DNA of 64,000 bases from Janthinobacterium sp. LM6 (GTDB lineage Bacteria > Pseudomonadota > Gammaproteobacteria > Burkholderiales > Burkholderiaceae_D): assembly GCF_002002885.1 (NCBI RefSeq), contig NZ_CP019510.1:1240001-1304000 (forward strand), given 5' to 3'. This document shows positions 6,617-63,596 of the stretch, piece by piece (position 1 is the stretch's first letter; each line of letters begins with the position of its first letter). Position numbers and translations under genes: made by a program. The notes under the pieces are model-generated. The model worked only from the letters and a program-made list of their open reading frames with translations, did not search any database and was not told the DNA's origin.

Positions 6617-6956
6617 GTGAAGCAGGCCAGACAGTCGCTGGCCGGCGCAGCAATGCGCTGGCGGGAGGAAGGTCCGGACTCCATAGAGCGGGGTGACGGT
6701 TAACGGCCGTCCGTCGAAAGCCGCAAGGTATAAGGCGAGGAATAGGGCCACAGAGACGAGCGTATTAAGTTACGGTGAAACGCGGTAACCTCCACCTGGT
6801 GCAATTTCAAATAGGCACGCGATGATGCTGCTCGCGGAGCGTGCGGGTAGAAAGCTTGAGCGCCCGAGTAATCTGGCGCCTAGAGGAATGACTGTCATAG
6901 CGCCGACCTGCAAGGGAAGGTGCCGTAACAAAATCCGGCCTACCGGCCTGCTTCAC
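6617..6956 (+). ncRNA. rnpB: RNase P RNA (class A)
   Basis: This is the catalytic RNA of RNase P, which matures tRNA 5' ends. Its ends form helix P1: GTGAAGCAGGCC (6617-6628) pairs perfectly with GGCCTGCTTCAC (6945-6956). Inside are the conserved blocks GAGGAAGGTCCGGACTCC (P4 5' strand and CR-I), CAGAGACGA, GGTGAAACGCGGTAA and, near the 3' end, AATCCGGCCTACCGG. At about 340 nucleotides it has the usual length of proteobacterial type A RNAs. The protein-coding frames that cross it are not genes. Confidence 0.95.
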
Positions 6957-7025
6957 TTGAATTCCTGTTCCCTGGTTTGCCAGGGAGCGTATCGGCCGCA
7001 GCGTTTTGCCTGCTGCGCGCCGCCC

Positions 7026-9035: not shown

Positions 9036-9301
9036 CTGGCAAGCTGTGTGTCGTGCTGTCGGCCCTGCTGGTGTGCTGCGGCCTGTCGCTGGTGAACGCG
9101 CAATACCAGTCGCGCCACCTGCTGATCGACCTGGAGCGCGCGCAAGCGCTGTCGCGCCAGCTCGACATCGACTGGGCGCAACTGCAGCTGGACCAGTCCA
9201 CTTTGGGCAAGCATGAACGCATCGAATCGATCGCGCGGCGCGACCTGAGCATGACGCCGCTGACGGCGGCACGGACGCAATACCTGACGGAGGGCGAATA
9301 A
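9032..9301 (+). CDS. ftsL: Cell division protein FtsL
   Basis: The 89-residue bitopic protein has a very short cytoplasmic start (MTGK), one transmembrane helix (about 5-24) and a periplasmic heptad-rich coiled coil ([26 protein letters not shown]). FtsL, FtsB and FtsQ form the trimer that activates FtsWI at the septum. The periplasmic Leu/Gln pattern, size and position between rsmH and ftsI identify it. It overlaps rsmH by 4 bases and shares one base with ftsI. Confidence 0.93.
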
Positions 9302-11079
9302 TGAAGTTGGGCGGTAACAGCAATGGCCGGGTGGCGGCATCGAAAGGCGTGCCATTCTCGAAGAACCCCGTACTGGCGGTGCGCCTGCCCGTCTGGCGTT
9401 CGCGCGTCGTGCTGTTTCTGCTGTTCTTCGCTTTCGCCGGCCTGGGCGCGCGGGCGCTGTGGCTGCAGGGCGTGTCGACGCAGTTCCTGCAAAAGCAGGG
9501 CAAGGCGCGCTATGAGCGCACCCTGGAATTGCCAGCCACGCGCGGCAAGATCACCGATCGCAATGGCCAGGTGCTCGCTTCGTCCGTGCCCGTGAAAGCC
9601 ATCTGGGCCATTCCCGACGACGTGCTGCAGGCGTCGCCCGAGAAAATCAATGCGCTGGCCGGCCTGCTGGAAATGAATGTCAACGAATTGCGCAAGAAGC
9701 TCGATTCGGACCGCAGCTTCGTTTACCTGAAACGCCAGGTCGAGATGGACGTGGCCGACAAGATTTCCAAGCTGGGCATCGACGGCATCGACGAGCGCAA
9801 GGAATATAAACGCTTTTATCCACAGGGCGAAGTAATGACCCACGTGGTGGGCTTTACCAACGTGGAAGACGTCGGCCAGGAAAGCATGGAACTGGCGCAG
9901 CAGAAAACCCTCGTCGGCACCACCGGCAGCCGCCGCGTGATCAAGGACCGCCTGGGCCACATCGTCGAAGACATCGGCTTCATCCACGAACCGCATGACG
10001 GCAAGGATCTGACCCTGTCCGTCGACAGCAAGATCCAGTACATCGCCTTCACGCAGTTGAAGGAAGCGGTGGAGAAATTCAACGCCAAGGCCGGCGGCGC
10101 CGTGGTGCTCGACGTGCACACGGGCGAAGTGCTGGCCCTGGCCAATTACCCAAGCTACGACCCGAACGACCGCCGCAAGCTCACGGGCCAGCAGCTGCGC
10201 AACCGCGTCATGACCGATACGTTTGAACCTGGTTCGACCCTGAAACCGATCACGGTCTCGCTGGCGCTCGACACGGGCCGCGTCAAGCCGGGCACCCTGA
10301 TCGACACGGGCCCGGGCCGCTACACCATCGCCGACCGCACGATCACCGACACCAAGCCGCACGGCGTGATCAATGTCTCCGAAATCATCGAAATGTCGTC
10401 GAACATCGGCACCTCGAAGATCGCGCTGGGCATGCCGTCGCAGGAAATGTGGGAAATGTTTACCAAGGTGGGCTTCGGCCAGCAGCCGAAATGGGGTTTC
10501 CCCGGTGCCGTGGCCGGCCGCGTGCGTCCGTATAAATCGTGGCGCCCGGTGGAGCAGGCGACCATGAGCTACGGTAACGGTATTTCCGTCTCGCTGATCC
10601 AGCTGGCGCGCTCTTATATGATGTTCGCGCGCGACGGCGACACGATTCCCCTGTCGTTCCAGAAGGTCAATGAACTGCCCGTGGGCCAGCAAGTGATCAA
10701 GCCGAAGACGGCCGCCGAAATGCGCGCCATGCTGGAACTGGTGGTCTCCGGCGCGCACGGCTCGGCCAAGCGCGCCCAGGTCGCCGGCTACCGCGTGGGC
10801 GGCAAGACGGGTACCGCCTATAAGGTGGAAAACGGCCGCTATGCGATGCCGCGTAAATACATCGGCTCTTTCGTGGGCATGGTGCCGATGTCGGCGCCGC
10901 GCTTCATCATCGCCGTGATGATCGATGAACCGACCGGCCCGGCCCACTATGGCGGCCAGGTTGCCGCTCCCGCTTTCGCGGCGATTGCGACCAACGCGCT
11001 GCGCGCGATGAACGTACCGCCCGATTCCTCCGTCACCGAAATCGTGGTCCCGGCCAATGCCGGCCCGGAGGCCATGTGA
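9301..11079 (+). CDS. ftsI: Septal peptidoglycan transpeptidase FtsI (PBP3)
   Basis: The 592-residue class B penicillin-binding protein cross-links septal peptidoglycan. It has one N-terminal membrane helix (about 36-53), the dimerisation domain, and a transpeptidase domain with all three motifs: Ser312-Thr-Leu-Lys315 (nucleophile S312), SSN at 366-368 and KTGT at 502-505. It is the partner of FtsW, encoded downstream in the same cluster, and the target of beta-lactams such as aztreonam. Start overlaps the ftsL stop (TAATG). Confidence 0.97.
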   Translation: MKLGGNSNGRVAASKGVPFSKNPVLAVRLPVWRSRVVLFLLFFAFAGLGARALWLQGVSTQFLQKQGKARYERTLELPATRGKITDRNGQVLASSVPVKAIWAIPDDVLQASPEKINALAGLLEMNVNELRKKLDSDRSFVYLKRQVEMDVADKISKLGIDGIDERKEYKRFYPQGEVMTHVVGFTNVEDVGQESMELAQQKTLVGTTGSRRVIKDRLGHIVEDIGFIHEPHDGKDLTLSVDSKIQYIAFTQLKEAVEKFNAKAGGAVVLDVHTGEVLALANYPSYDPNDRRKLTGQQLRNRVMTDTFEPGSTLKPITVSLALDTGRVKPGTLIDTGPGRYTIADRTITDTKPHGVINVSEIIEMSSNIGTSKIALGMPSQEMWEMFTKVGFGQQPKWGFPGAVAGRVRPYKSWRPVEQATMSYGNGISVSLIQLARSYMMFARDGDTIPLSFQKVNELPVGQQVIKPKTAAEMRAMLELVVSGAHGSAKRAQVAGYRVGGKTGTAYKVENGRYAMPRKYIGSFVGMVPMSAPRFIIAVMIDEPTGPAHYGGQVAAPAFAAIATNALRAMNVPPDSSVTEIVVPANAGPEAM

Positions 11080-28436: not shown

Positions 28437-29372
28437 ATGTTAAAACAACGCACTATCAAACAACAGGTCCGCACCATCGGTGTCGGTTTGCACTCTGGCA
28501 CCAAGGTGGAGCTGACTCTGCGTCCTGCCGCGATCGACACGGGCATTGTGTTTCGCCGCATCGACCTCGATCCCATCGTCGAGTTCCCCGCCAGCGCCAT
28601 GGCCGTGGGCGATACGCGCATGGCTTCCGTGCTGATCAAGGATGGCGCCAGGGTTTCTACAGTGGAACACCTGATGTCGGCGGCGGCCGGCCTGGGCGTC
28701 GACAATATGTATATCGACGTGAATGCGGAAGAAATTCCCATCATGGACGGTTCCGCCTCGTCCTTCGTCTACCTGCTGCAGCAGGCTGGTGTGGAAGAGC
28801 AACAAGCGCCAAAGAAATTCATCAAGGTCATCAAGCCTGTGGAAGTGCGTCACGGCAAGGGCGACGCGGAGAAATGGGCTCGCCTGTCGCCGTACGACGG
28901 CTTCAAGCTCGACTTCTTCATCGAATTCAATCATCCGGCCGTCGATGGCACGATGCAGCGCGCCTCGGTCGACTTCGGCGACGTGTCGTATGTGCACGAC
29001 GTGGCGCGCGCACGCACCTTCGGTTTCATGCAGGACGTGGAAAGCTTGCGCGGCATGGGCCTGGCGCGTGGCGGTTCGCTGGAAAACGCCATCGTGATGG
29101 ATGAGTACCGCATCCTCAACGCCGATGGCTTGCGCTATGAAGACGAATTTGTGCGCCACAAGATCCTCGACGCCATCGGCGACCTATACCTGGTGGGCCA
29201 CCCCTTGCTCGCGTATTACACGGCGCACAAGTCGGGCCACGCGCTGAACAACCAGCTGCTGCTGGCGCTGCTGGAGCAGCCGGAATCGTATGAAATAGTT
29301 TCCTTCGATACCAATGAGGCGGCGCCGCAATCCTACCTGCGCCAGATGGAGCGCGAGTGGTCGCTTACCTGA
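28437..29372 (+). CDS. lpxC: UDP-3-O-acyl-GlcNAc deacetylase LpxC
   Basis: The 311-residue zinc amidase catalyses the committed step of lipid A synthesis. I start at [21 protein letters not shown]; the frame extends 24 codons upstream but without homology. Zinc ligand His78 lies in [10 protein letters not shown], and the other two in the [15 protein letters not shown] motif; KVELTLRPA and [12 protein letters not shown] complete the family pattern. It normally lies right after the dcw cluster; here about 3.5 kb of other genes separate it from ftsZ. A palindrome-ended repeat follows its stop by 7 bases. Confidence 0.97.
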
Positions 29373-29379
29373 TCTGAGC

Positions 29380-29513
29380 GACACCTCATTAAACCTACTG
29401 CGCGTCGGTATAGGCGGCCTGCGATGCTCACCGGCTCGGCGCCCCCGTACCTTCGTACGGTTGCGCTTCTTAGCCACCTCTCCCTTCCGCTCGCTACGGT
29501 TTTCTGAGGTGTC
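29380..29513. repeat. Palindrome-ended intergenic repeat, copy A
   Basis: A 134-bp element between convergent genes. Its ends GACACCTCA (29380-29388) and TGAGGTGTC (29505-29513) are perfectly complementary. The core, 29391-29503, begins AAACCTACTGCGCGTCG and ends CTTCCGCTCGCTACGGTTTT. It contains a small hairpin CCGTAC-CTTC-GTACGG. The same core occurs inverted at 38041-38152. Core ends (AAACC/GGTTT) extend the terminal stem. Confidence 0.8.
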
Positions 29514-29532
29514 AAGACGCCGCATGGTGTTC

Positions 29533-30042
29533 TTAATCTTTTGGTTCGCGGTGGTGGCGCAGCATATTGCGCAGCGCCGCGATCAATTGCTCGTTCTGTT
29601 TCGACGCGGGCAGGGCCGTGCTCAGCTCTTCCAGGGCCGACATGGCTTTTTCCGGCAAGACCAGCGCCCGCGTATGCACGATGGGCGCGATGCTCTTGAT
29701 GACTTGCACTTTCAGCTTGATGCCTGAAATCTGCCAGCCTTTTCTTTCCAGCTCCCCTTGCAATTTTGGCAATTGCTGCTTGAGCTTGGCTGCCAGCGCC
29801 GCGTTCGGCGTGGCCAGCACCAGTTGGCCGCTCTCGAATTGCAGGATGTCGCAATGCTCGAACATGGCCGGCAAGGCCTTGGCGCAATCTTTTTGCAGGG
29901 CGGCCAGGCGCGTGACGGTGGGCATCAGGGAGGCCATCGTCGCGTTGCCGCGCAGAAAATCGGTTGCGCCCGTGACGGCCGGGCCGGAGCGGGCAAAGCC
30001 GTAGCCGCGGCGCGGTGCCGGAGAATAAGTGGGAGTTCGCAT
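29533..30042 (-). CDS. DUF721 (DciA-like) protein
   Basis: The ATG ending at 30042 gives 169 residues; a longer frame runs 37 codons upstream. The core (FEHCDILQFESGQLVLATPNAALAAKLKQQLPKLQGELERKGWQISGIKLKVQV) matches DUF721, whose DciA members load the replicative helicase DnaB in the many bacteria that lack dnaC. In betaproteobacteria a DUF721 gene commonly lies between lpxC and secA, as here. The product is probably a DnaB loader, but the family also has members of unknown role. It reads away from secA. Confidence 0.75.
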   Translation of the reverse strand: MRTPTYSPAPRRGYGFARSGPAVTGATDFLRGNATMASLMPTVTRLAALQKDCAKALPAMFEHCDILQFESGQLVLATPNAALAAKLKQQLPKLQGELERKGWQISGIKLKVQVIKSIAPIVHTRALVLPEKAMSALEELSTALPASKQNEQLIAALRNMLRHHREPKD

Positions 30043-38021: not shown

Positions 38022-38030
38022 TGCTTTTTT

Positions 38031-38162
38031 AACGTCTAATAAAACCGTAGCGAGCGGAAGTGGGTGGTGGTTGAGAAGCGCAACTGTACCGAGTACGGGG
38101 CCGCCGAGGCAGTGAGCATCGCAGACCGCGACCCGCGACGCGCAGTAGGTTTGATAGACGTT
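38031..38162. repeat. Palindrome-ended intergenic repeat, copy B (inverted)
   Basis: A 132-bp element whose core (38041-38152) is the reverse complement of copy A: the same 20-base CTTCCGCTCGCTACGGTTTT end, AAACCTACTGCGCGTCG end and inner blocks TGCGATGCTCAC, CCCCGTAC and GTTGCGCTTCT. Its outer ends AACGTCTA (38031-38038) and TAGACGTT (38155-38162) are perfectly complementary but differ from those of copy A. It lies between the toxin stop and the yacG stop, one base from the latter. Confidence 0.8.
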
Positions 38163-38163
38163 A

Positions 38164-38352
38164 TTATTGCGGCTTGTTGTCTTCGTCCGCCAGCGGATCT
38201 TCGAACGGGTCGGCGGCGGGGATCGTGTATTTCTCTTCGGCCCAGGCACCCAGGTCGATCTGCTTGCAGCGTTCCGAGCAGAAGGGGCGGAATTTGTTGG
38301 CTTCAGTCCATTCGACTTTGGCGGCACAGGTAGGGCAATTAACGACGGTCAT
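38164..38352 (-). CDS. yacG: DNA gyrase inhibitor YacG
   Basis: A 62-residue zinc protein starting [42 protein letters not shown], with the four zinc Cys at about 6, 9, 25 and 29 and an acidic tail ([13 protein letters not shown]). YacG binds GyrB and blocks DNA binding by gyrase. It lies after zapD and coaE as in many proteobacteria. A start 7 codons upstream exists but lacks homology. Confidence 0.93.
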
Positions 38353-55160: not shown

Positions 55161-55249
55161 GATATCGTTTTCTTCGGAAAAAGCACCCGGCTCGCGTCCC
55201 CGCAAGCCAGATTCAACGGAAGGCGCGGCGCCCGGCAAGGCCCGCACTT

Positions 55250-55440
55250 CCACCTGTCCTGGCCGGTATCCGGGCTGGCAAGTACGGCCATCCCACCTTC
55301 CCATGCTCGATGATTGCAAGCACAGTGGTTGTCAGAGATAGCTTGTCACCCGCTTCCTGTGGGGAGGGGCGACACTTGCTTACCGTTGCGGGGGCAGCAC
55401 ACGTTCGCCGCGAGCGCGGCATCGTGTTTCCCGTTTAACT
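55250..55440 (-). promoter_or_regulatory. Cobalamin (AdoCbl) riboswitch
   Basis: In the btuB leader, read on the minus strand, are the conserved blocks GCCCCCGCAACGGTAA (55395-55380), AACCACTGTGC (the CCACTG element), CATGGGAAGG, and the B12 box AGCCCGGATACCGGCC (55276-55261). The ordered blocks cover about 190 bases. It should switch off btuB expression when adenosylcobalamin binds, by sequestering the ribosome binding site or ending transcription in the 90 bases that follow. Confidence 0.95.
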
Positions 55441-55460
55441 GCGCTCATGGACATGAGCGC
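55441..55460 (-). promoter_or_regulatory. Palindrome just upstream of the riboswitch
   Basis: GCGCTCATG-GA-CATGAGCGC: 9-bp complementary arms with a 2-base centre. In the RNA this would be a 7-bp hairpin at the very 5' end of the leader, perhaps a stability element; in DNA it could be an operator. Confidence 0.5.
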
Positions 55461-55471
55461 GGGCACCAAAA

Positions 55472-55500
55472 CCCCGCCATTATACGTGCAGCAGGCGGGG
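55472..55500 (-). promoter_or_regulatory. btuB promoter -10 inside the loop of an upstream terminator
   Basis: Minus strand: CCCCGCC (55500-55494), 15 bases, GGCGGGG (55478-55472), then TTTT. This is a plausible terminator for the cobTSC genes, which end 30 bases earlier. The loop contains a perfect TATAAT (55484-55479), a likely -10 for btuB that would start RNA at about 55472 in front of the riboswitch. The -35 region is weak. Confidence 0.5.
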
Positions 55501-58424: not shown

Positions 58425-59958
<1,534 letters not shown>

Positions 59959-60036
59959 GAGTTTGCACGAATCAGGTAACTGGTTCACGCATCAAATGTT
60001 CACACTTATCGGCTGTTAATATAAAGAACAGCATTT

Positions 60037-60113
60037 GGGGCTGTAGCTCAGCTGGTTAGAGCACCGTGTTGATAACGCGGGGGTCGTTGGTTCGAGTCCA
60101 ACCAGCCCTACCA
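60037..60113 (+). tRNA. tRNA-Ile (GAT)
   Basis: 77 bases including an encoded CCA. Acceptor GGGGCTG pairs with CAGCCCT (first pair G-U), D loop AGCTCAGCTGGTTAGAGC, anticodon GAT at 60071-60073 in loop TTGATAA, T arm GTTGGTTCGAGTCCAAC. In the usual spacer position. Confidence 0.97.
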
Positions 60114-60138
60114 GTTTCTGTAGTCTGGAAATACCCTA

Positions 60139-60214
60139 GGGGGATTAGCTCAGCTGGGAGAGCACCTGCTTTGCAAGCAGGGGGTCGTCGGTTCGATCCC
60201 GTCATCCTCCACCA
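60139..60214 (+). tRNA. tRNA-Ala (TGC)
   Basis: 76 bases with encoded CCA. Acceptor GGGGGAT pairs with ATCCTCC, anticodon TGC at 60172-60174 in loop TTTGCAA, T-loop GGTTCGATCCC. Second spacer tRNA, 25 bases after tRNA-Ile. Confidence 0.97.
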
Positions 60215-60285
60215 AAAGTTCAAACGTAAATCAGTGCTAAGTGCACCGGGATTTAGGTTTGGTCTTTTCGAGATCAAGTGCTGTA

Positions 60286-60297
60286 TGTTCTTTAACA
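60286..60297 (+). promoter_or_regulatory. boxA antitermination site before 23S
   Basis: TGTTCTTTAACA, the NusB/S10-binding element of rRNA operons, repeating the copy in front of 16S at 58221-58231 (GTTCTTTAACA). Confidence 0.8.
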
Positions 60298-60453
60298 ATC
60301 TGGAAGAAGTAAAGATTATTTATTGATCGGTTTGCCGTAAAAAGCGAATCGATGGGTAATGATTGTATGTATCAACAAACAAGCAACAACGTTGTACTTT
60401 CTTATCCCTGTAGCGCTCTTTTCGTTTGAAAGAATGAAGAGGCTAACGTTATA

Positions 60454-63330
<2,877 letters not shown>

Positions 63331-63480
63331 ATAACCTTAGCAGGTACAGAGGATGAGAAAGTACATGTTGCGTGAATGTTGATCGCAATCATTACCCAAG
63401 TAATACCTCAATACATAATCCTACTTCTTCCAGATTCATGGCTTTGTCGTCCTACAGGAGACAAATGCCGGTACAAGTTA

Positions 63481-63596
63481 TGCCTGATGACCATAGCAAG
63501 TTGGTCCCACCCCTTCCCATCCCGAACAGGACCGTGAAACAACTTTGCGCCGATGATAGTGCTGCAACCAGTGTGAAAGTAGGTTATCGTCAGGCT
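63481..63596 (+). rRNA. 5S ribosomal RNA
   Basis: Starts TGCCTGATGACCATAGCAAG and ends TCAGGCT, which pair as helix I. Conserved CCCATCCCGAACAGG and CGATGATAGT blocks are present. About 116 bases; last gene of the operon. Confidence 0.95.

Follow-up and report, generated by a model that had tools for sequence, protein, structure and literature searches.

Integron attC sites end in the boxes RYYYAAC and GTTRRRY, and MITEs of the IS1031 group of IS5 are associated with 3-bp TNA duplications. According to one account of REP sequences and BIMEs, REPs are 20-40 bp long, and they lie mostly between tandem or convergent genes, less than 20 bp from the 3' end of the upstream gene in the species shown (PMC3733652). 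E. coli REPs less than 16 nt from a stop codon can down-regulate translation (PMC12306157), and by both accounts it is well established that REP palindromes lie next to stop codons (PMC3733652, PMC12306157). The effect of ERIC on upstream transcripts is described as depending on orientation, YPAL as having filled and empty sites and duplications of 3 to 26 bp, and most ERIC/YPAL-like elements as ending in TA (PMC2229807); the sizes given for ERIC and YPAL are 127 and 168 bp (PMC2759123).

We analysed a repeat found in a 64,000-nt stretch of Janthinobacterium sp. LM6 (the window; NZ_CP019510.1, positions 1,240,001 to 1,304,000). Like the REP/BIME sequences of the GTAG and CGTC superfamilies, the element is palindromic, is present in high copy number and lies near the 3' end of the upstream gene. 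It differs from REPs in its length (~124-138 bp), its two conserved internal loops, its variable ends and the lack of any Y1/RAYT link found, and its GTAG lies inside the fold, whereas in REPs GTAG or CGTC is an end tag. With ERIC/RU-1 and YPAL/RU-2 it shares a short, non-autonomous, intergenic form, paired ends and a similar size, but its ends vary with compensation and are in register with stop codons, a distinction drawn from descriptions of those elements. Probable TNA target sites connect it with TNA MITEs, and its distant relatives in three genomes (G143, G251 and G289) resemble MITEs with fixed GAGKTTGTGA ends; the Janthinobacterium copies, in contrast, have many end sequences, no consistent duplication and a fixed polarity, and no element with matching ends on either side of a transposase was found. 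The element resembles attC as a structured site behind a stop codon with one strand preferred, but its copies are dispersed and not in cassette arrays, and the GTTRRRY box is mostly absent. We file it as a variant of the MITE/REP kind, because it departs from REPs in size and RAYT association, from MITEs in lacking conserved TIRs and from attC in its end boxes. No earlier description of the repeat was recognised among the open-licence papers listed.

Two copies of the element in the window

The two copies, A and B, are inverted relative to each other and are laid out as follows (window positions).

29380..29513, minus strand (model orientation): copy A from stem to stem, the longer form, which includes the inner segment GGGGGCGCCGAGCC (covariance model R1, E 5.5e-26)
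29379-29516, minus strand: span of the model match of copy A (covariance model R1)
29370..29372, plus strand: lpxC stop codon TGA, 7 nt ahead of the copy A stem (Pfam LpxC; sequence)
29380..29388, plus strand: left arm of the copy A outer stem, GACACCTCA (sequence)
29396..29404, plus strand: conserved internal-loop strand TACTGCGCG of copy A on the side facing the lpxC stop, near-constant in 30 loci of ten other genera
29445..29460, plus strand: central hairpin CCGTAC-CTTC-GTACGG of copy A (sequence), its pairs included in the covariation counts
29488..29497, minus strand: conserved internal-loop strand GTAGCGAGCG of copy A, near-constant in 30 loci of ten other genera, with the exceptions L069, L070, L079 and L087
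29505..29513, plus strand: right arm of the copy A outer stem, TGAGGTGTC (sequence)
29533-29535: dciA stop codon, 19 nt from copy A (sequence)
38028..38163, plus strand: model match of copy B, inverted relative to copy A (covariance model R1, E 3.8e-21)
38030..38038, plus strand: left arm of the copy B outer stem, TAACGTCTA (sequence)
38155..38163, plus strand: right arm of the copy B outer stem, TAGACGTTA (sequence)
38164..38166, minus strand: yacG stop codon TAA, directly abutting copy B (Pfam YacG; sequence)

Both copies were found by a covariance model made from 11 other copies, confirming the dispersed inverted repeat that the sequence-only reading had described here, and the 20-mer which that reading had proposed as a search sequence gave two exact matches in the window with up to 3 mismatches allowed, versus 0 in 100 shuffles. 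Copy A lies in the lpxC/dciA interval and copy B in the interval between a PIN-domain gene and yacG, with the stop of the PIN-domain gene 8 nt from the element. The statement that both copies lie within 10 bases of a stop codon holds for both sides of copy B and for the lpxC side of copy A (7 nt), and fails for the dciA side (19 nt). Among named relatives, the lpxC locus of copy A is closest to that of Janthinobacterium sp. FT68W, with 100% LpxC identity. No Rfam match fell on the element in the window, nor in four loci at E values up to 5. A simple scan for hairpins with 3-8 base loops followed by a T tract detected no terminator-like site inside copy A or copy B, and gave only a weak match outside copy A, at 29516-29531. 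The window also contains RNase P RNA (6619-6958), a cobalamin riboswitch (55244-55485) and an rRNA operon (58425-63595).

Size and spread of the family

A genome search at E <= 0.01, with a covariance model trained on 11 copies, yielded 121 matches, consisting of 92 places that were kept, 24 opposite-strand readings and 5 short matches that were set aside; with 150 of 4480 first-look candidates scored, 92 is a lower bound. The at least 92 copies are dispersed over the whole chromosome with a median spacing of 39 kb, and the closest pair is 1014 bp apart. Plain DNA similarity gave at least 46 matches, with the best 40 of 108 candidates scored. The element is ~124 bp long, and a variant of ~138 bp has an extra GGGGGCGCCGAGCC segment. 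Replication-strand bias is not evident (31/23 vs 23/15, with the origin assumed near base 1).

The congener G048 has 47 copies at E <= 1e-8. At the family level, 55 of 116 genomes and 30 of 44 genera, the window genus included, have a match at E <= 1e-6 with 30 candidates scored per genome, and at the class level 9 of 274 genomes match, the window genome among them, at E <= 1e-8 with 12 candidates scored per genome. With the single copy L013 as the query, there was no match in plasmid or phage collections at E 1e-5, and an exact-pattern search returned two viral contigs, one of which matches the covariance model.

Stems covary around two conserved internal loops

The element folds as a single long hairpin that is interrupted by two conserved internal loops and capped by a central GTAC hairpin. 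Across ten other genera (30 loci), the outer and middle stems vary around loops of near-constant sequence. In the alignment of these genera (A5; 33 rows, three of which are opposite-strand readings that the strand counts drop), 31 of 39 pairs show two-sided changes, paired cells reach 95.6% versus 70.7% after shuffling, and the covariation score is 0.662 versus 0.183. When the partner is slid by 1-3 columns, pairing falls to 28-42%. The outer arms of the window genome comprise 57 sequences in 91 copies (the 92nd copy fell under the alignment threshold), and 674 of the 719 cells (94%) of the eight outer pairs are paired. The covarying end stems noticed in two copies extend to further copies within the genome and across ten genera. 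The accompanying description of the stems as different in sequence and equal in complementarity fits the 57 arm sequences, with the correction that they are not arbitrary: many resemble ACRCCTRAC/GTYAGGYGT, which is exact at both ends in 18 of 92 copies. Among the usual marks of a MITE, the family has its 92 copies, a length too short for a transposase and complementary arms; a conserved TIR is missing from the 57 outer-arm sequences and is present in the distant relatives from G143, G251 and G289.

Orthologous copies of the window genome (G000) and G048 were compared at single sites. Between L029 and L188, two pairs have changed with compensation and one mismatch has been repaired, the middle stem has been exchanged in L010/L191, and L030/L192 are identical. 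At the lpxC site, L111, L112 and L116 have an outer stem near that of the window copy and a different middle stem that is still largely complementary. L028 (1498-1647) has the inner GC-rich segment in the opposite arm and in inverted orientation, an arrangement expected from template switching; L291, L296, L297 and L298 are similar to L028 in length.

Most copies lie beside stop codons with a fixed polarity

On the sense strand of the adjacent gene, the order is the stop codon, a few bases, and then ACRCC...TACTGCGCG...CGCTCGCTAC...GGYGT. A stop codon lies within 15 nt of this fixed end only in 66 copies, of both ends in 12, of the other end only in 4 and of neither in 10 (n = 92, also counting stops that fall within the modelled element by up to 20 nt), and the polarity of 66 versus 4 has P 1.6e-15. 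The fixed end thus has a stop in 78 of 92 copies, bearing out the expected preference for gene 3' ends, and the remaining 14 are without a predicted stop there; for random noncoding points in the same loci, 7% are near a stop for one given side. The commonest gap between stop and stem is 2 nt (28 of 78). The stops beside elements are TAA in 36 cases, TGA in 25 and TAG in 17, with no marked difference from the loci overall (125, 101 and 47). In other genera, where the gene calls are weaker, a stop is found within 20 nt of the fixed end in 14 of 30 loci and of the other end only in 1 of 30, with 9 of 30 contexts unresolved; genes were called by a codon-usage script trained on window genes.

With respect to gene context, 51 of the 92 copies are tandem behind the upstream gene, 31 are convergent, 6 are tandem in the opposite orientation, 2 are divergent and 2 have an unknown context. 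For comparison, among window stops with at least 20 nt after them, 10 are convergent and 16 tandem, so the suggested bias to convergent sites is absent.

Wobble pairs favor the strand antisense to the gene

Read in the orientation of the model, the 91 copies of the window genome contain 299 G.T cells and 41 A.C cells, and the counts are 81 to 15 in the ten-genus set, from which the three opposite-strand rows were dropped; the eight outer pairs alone give 45 G.T versus 16 A.C. Since the alignments were fitted to the model, these counts may lean slightly towards the model strand. The model strand, which runs antisense to the gene with the adjacent stop, is also predicted to be the more stable one in 86 of 92 copies with RNA parameters and in 90 of 92 with DNA parameters. 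A function in the 3' UTR is possible and would explain the polarity, but the bias argues that it is not the mRNA strand that folds.

Filled and empty sites and TNA flanks

Forty-eight query sites were searched for in G048, in a set that was enriched for shared sites by containing G048 element loci. Thirty-one were placed, of which 7 are shared, 23 are empty and 1 holds a core-deleted relic; 17 were unplaced. Inspection by eye detected the outer stem at 0 of the 23 displayed empty sites, and at least four of them (L002, L004, L014 and L060) carry another inverted repeat. The idea that the ends are target-site-like, in the sense of a palindrome that was there before, is refuted by these sites, and a pre-existing terminator with the element in its loop was rejected on the same ground. 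The proposed REP-like, non-autonomous mobile element gains support from the presence and absence at orthologous sites together with the TNA signature described below. We infer insertion events from this pattern, though at single sites it may reflect loss instead of gain. Relics that lack the core but still have both ends and a shorter hairpin were seen in L300-L304, at genome position 4084475-4084513 and in L220 (~9267-9355).

Six joined sites were searched for in 40 genomes of the genus, and loci were returned for four of them. At L047, three empty sites read GTTTATTCG (GTTTACTCG in one) and the filled site is TTA-element-TTA, a 3-bp TTA duplication. The empty site of L009 suggests a possible 5-bp duplication, CATTT; no duplication length fits cleanly at L022, and at L051 the empty sites are less similar and show no clear duplication.

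TNA stands exactly 2 nt outside the stem on the left in 30 and on the right in 25 of 92 copies, against a background of 5.6% (right, P 2.5e-11), and in other genera in 10 and 6 of 30. Because stop codons themselves feed the left peak, the right one is informative, and a right TNA coincides with a predicted convergent stop only at L047. At offset 2/2, 7 of 92 copies carry identical 3-mers on their two sides, against a shuffled mean of 2.7 (uncorrected P 0.0155). This is the top count among 121 offset pairs but not clearly better than at other offsets, which do as well, with 5 copies at 1/0 (P 0.0025) and 6 at 0/1 (P 0.008). So few identical triplets are expected if duplications have decayed except where a stop codon preserves them, and equally if no fixed duplication ever existed. 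Two of the stop codons, TAA and TGA, fit TNA, and an element inserting into one of them would duplicate the stop. TNA insertion into stops would therefore explain the adjacency, though neither the 17 TAG cases nor the polarity, because TNA is its own reverse complement. The flanks of L063 and L084, from two other genera, have 8-bp direct repeats (CATCATGG and CGATAAGG) round the copies, longer than the TNA model predicts.

Distant relatives and other repeats at the lpxC stop

The distant relatives in G143, G251 and G289 (L347-L376, L306, L308, L310-L312 and L314) are MITE-like, ~140-254 bp long, with GAGKTTGTGA-type ends and several core layouts; G289 has 93 matches to this type of end. Perfect 3-bp duplications flank 15 of 19 elements from these three genomes, 14 of the duplications being TNA and all of the elements having GAG-type ends. 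This set leaves out six less clear relatives from other genomes (L305, L307, L309, L313, L315 and L316).

The lpxC stop (~10934 in these loci) is a site common to several repeat families, as seen by eye in 25 of 80 loci. In L106, L107, L109, L117, L119, L122, L127 and L171 it is followed by unrelated palindromes that differ between species, of the GTAGGTCGGATTAG type, of the GTAGGGTGG type or ~100 bp long, and in L113, L115, L118 and L120 the palindrome is absent. Look-alikes of GTAG-type REPs occupy this same site in other Janthinobacterium species, also by eye. The ~100-bp repeat (L109, ~10974-11075) is structured and has a similar GTAC-GAAT-GTAC core. It has at least 40 matches in 39 places of the window genome, with the best 40 of 59 candidates scored, and it is possibly a sister family of the element.

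Search for an enzyme that may move the element

The window genome yielded no autonomous element that shares these ends: all 39 exact matches to the end pattern are known copies or two core-deleted relics, and nine one-mismatch matches lie elsewhere, versus ten for a reversed control pattern. No good end pair spaced for a transposase gene was recognised in the 30 loci of distant relatives. The full element is absent from the ~1.5-kb flanks of 13 Y1 genes in 6 genomes, in which one 39-nt fragment matched (E 0.75). When compared by hand, copies occur in 8 of 20 genomes without Y1_Tnp and in 47 of 96 with it, indicating no association. A RAYT/Y1 partner is unsupported, since the element neither lies beside these 13 Y1 genes nor tracks the presence of Y1_Tnp. 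The Y1 gene at 5191312 has a palindrome of its own (GGGGTCGGACCCT/AGGGTCCGACCCC), and in L097 (1193-1219) a Y1 transposase gene of the window genome adjoins its own palindrome, GGGGTCGGACCCTAAGGGTCCGACCCC. Identity with attC was also rejected: its end boxes are present at both ends in 7 of 92 copies and at one end or more in 15 of 92.

Discussion

We consider it probable that the repeat is a family of non-autonomous, MITE/REP-like mobile elements, inserted at TNA, often at or beside a stop codon, and kept as a folded structure. The element would insert at a TNA trinucleotide, very often at or beside a stop, so that the gene keeps a stop codon, and it may spread or persist as a single strand in folded form. 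A trans-acting protein presumably recognises the two internal loops, which would account for their conserved sequence; the stems, terminal inverted repeats included, would need only complementarity and no fixed sequence. The polarity may be due to selection or to the mechanism itself. A more specific proposal is that the ends are read by shape and on one strand only, that stops are targeted in one orientation and that an enzyme acting in trans reads the loops, which would place the element between MITEs and attC; we offer this tentatively and regard it as rather doubtful.

The polarity and the 2-nt spacing, the commonest gap (28 of 78), would reflect function and not insertion if the element acted as RNA in the 3' UTR and were selected where it stands, as a hairpin close to the stop codon that holds up ribosomes at termination, or protects or destabilises the mRNA, as has been proposed for REP/ERIC. 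This explanation agrees with the orthologous copies in which double changes preserve the pairing (L029/L188, L010/L191) or nothing has changed (L030/L192), with the different palindromes seen by eye at the same lpxC stop in different species, and with the reported down-regulation of translation by REPs less than 16 nt from a stop (PMC12306157) and the reported orientation effect of ERIC (PMC2229807). A function in mRNA predicts the opposite of the observed wobble bias, which favors the antisense strand (299:41), and that strand is the more stable one in 86 of 92 copies; moreover, 23 of 31 placed sites are empty in the congener. We hold selection in place to be rather unlikely. The preferred strand, the conserved loops and ends kept by complementarity (57 arms in 91 copies) would suit a single-stranded DNA substrate of a hairpin-reading enzyme (like attC/IntI or REP/RAYT), with the antisense strand folding and being moved. 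The 3-bp duplications in the relatives, however, point to staggered double-stranded cuts, the element is present in 8 of 20 genomes that lack Y1_Tnp and in 47 of 96 that have it and so does not follow its distribution, and attC boxes at both ends are confined to 7 of 92 copies; such a substrate is held to be unlikely.

The covarying arms could also arise without selection, by template switching between the arms in replication, which homogenises quasi-palindromes. The process itself has been published (PMC8794818, PMC8604942), and the inverted GC-rich segment of L028 is of the kind it would leave. Yet asymmetric internal loops persist over ten genera, the bias of G.T over A.C would need an added strand-asymmetric process, and neither copy number nor stop adjacency is explained; as a full account it seems improbable; homogenisation of the arms as described in PMC8794818 could account for part of the covariation. 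A two-way transcription terminator between convergent genes, the function suggested from the two window copies, would fit the 31 of 92 copies in convergent contexts. The 51 of 92 copies in tandem contexts, the strong polarity (66 versus 4) and the lack of a terminator-like site in either window copy by a simple scan leave this function unsupported and very improbable.

Dispersed palindromes behind stop codons are common and poorly explained. The family has value as a clean test case: it combines a sharp 2-nt register to the stop with a fixed polarity, its folding signature is specific to one strand, and closely related species offer many sites with and without it. It makes directly testable whether such repeats come to lie at stops through the way they transpose or stay there under selection, and whether the ends of a transposon can be preserved by their structure without a fixed sequence.
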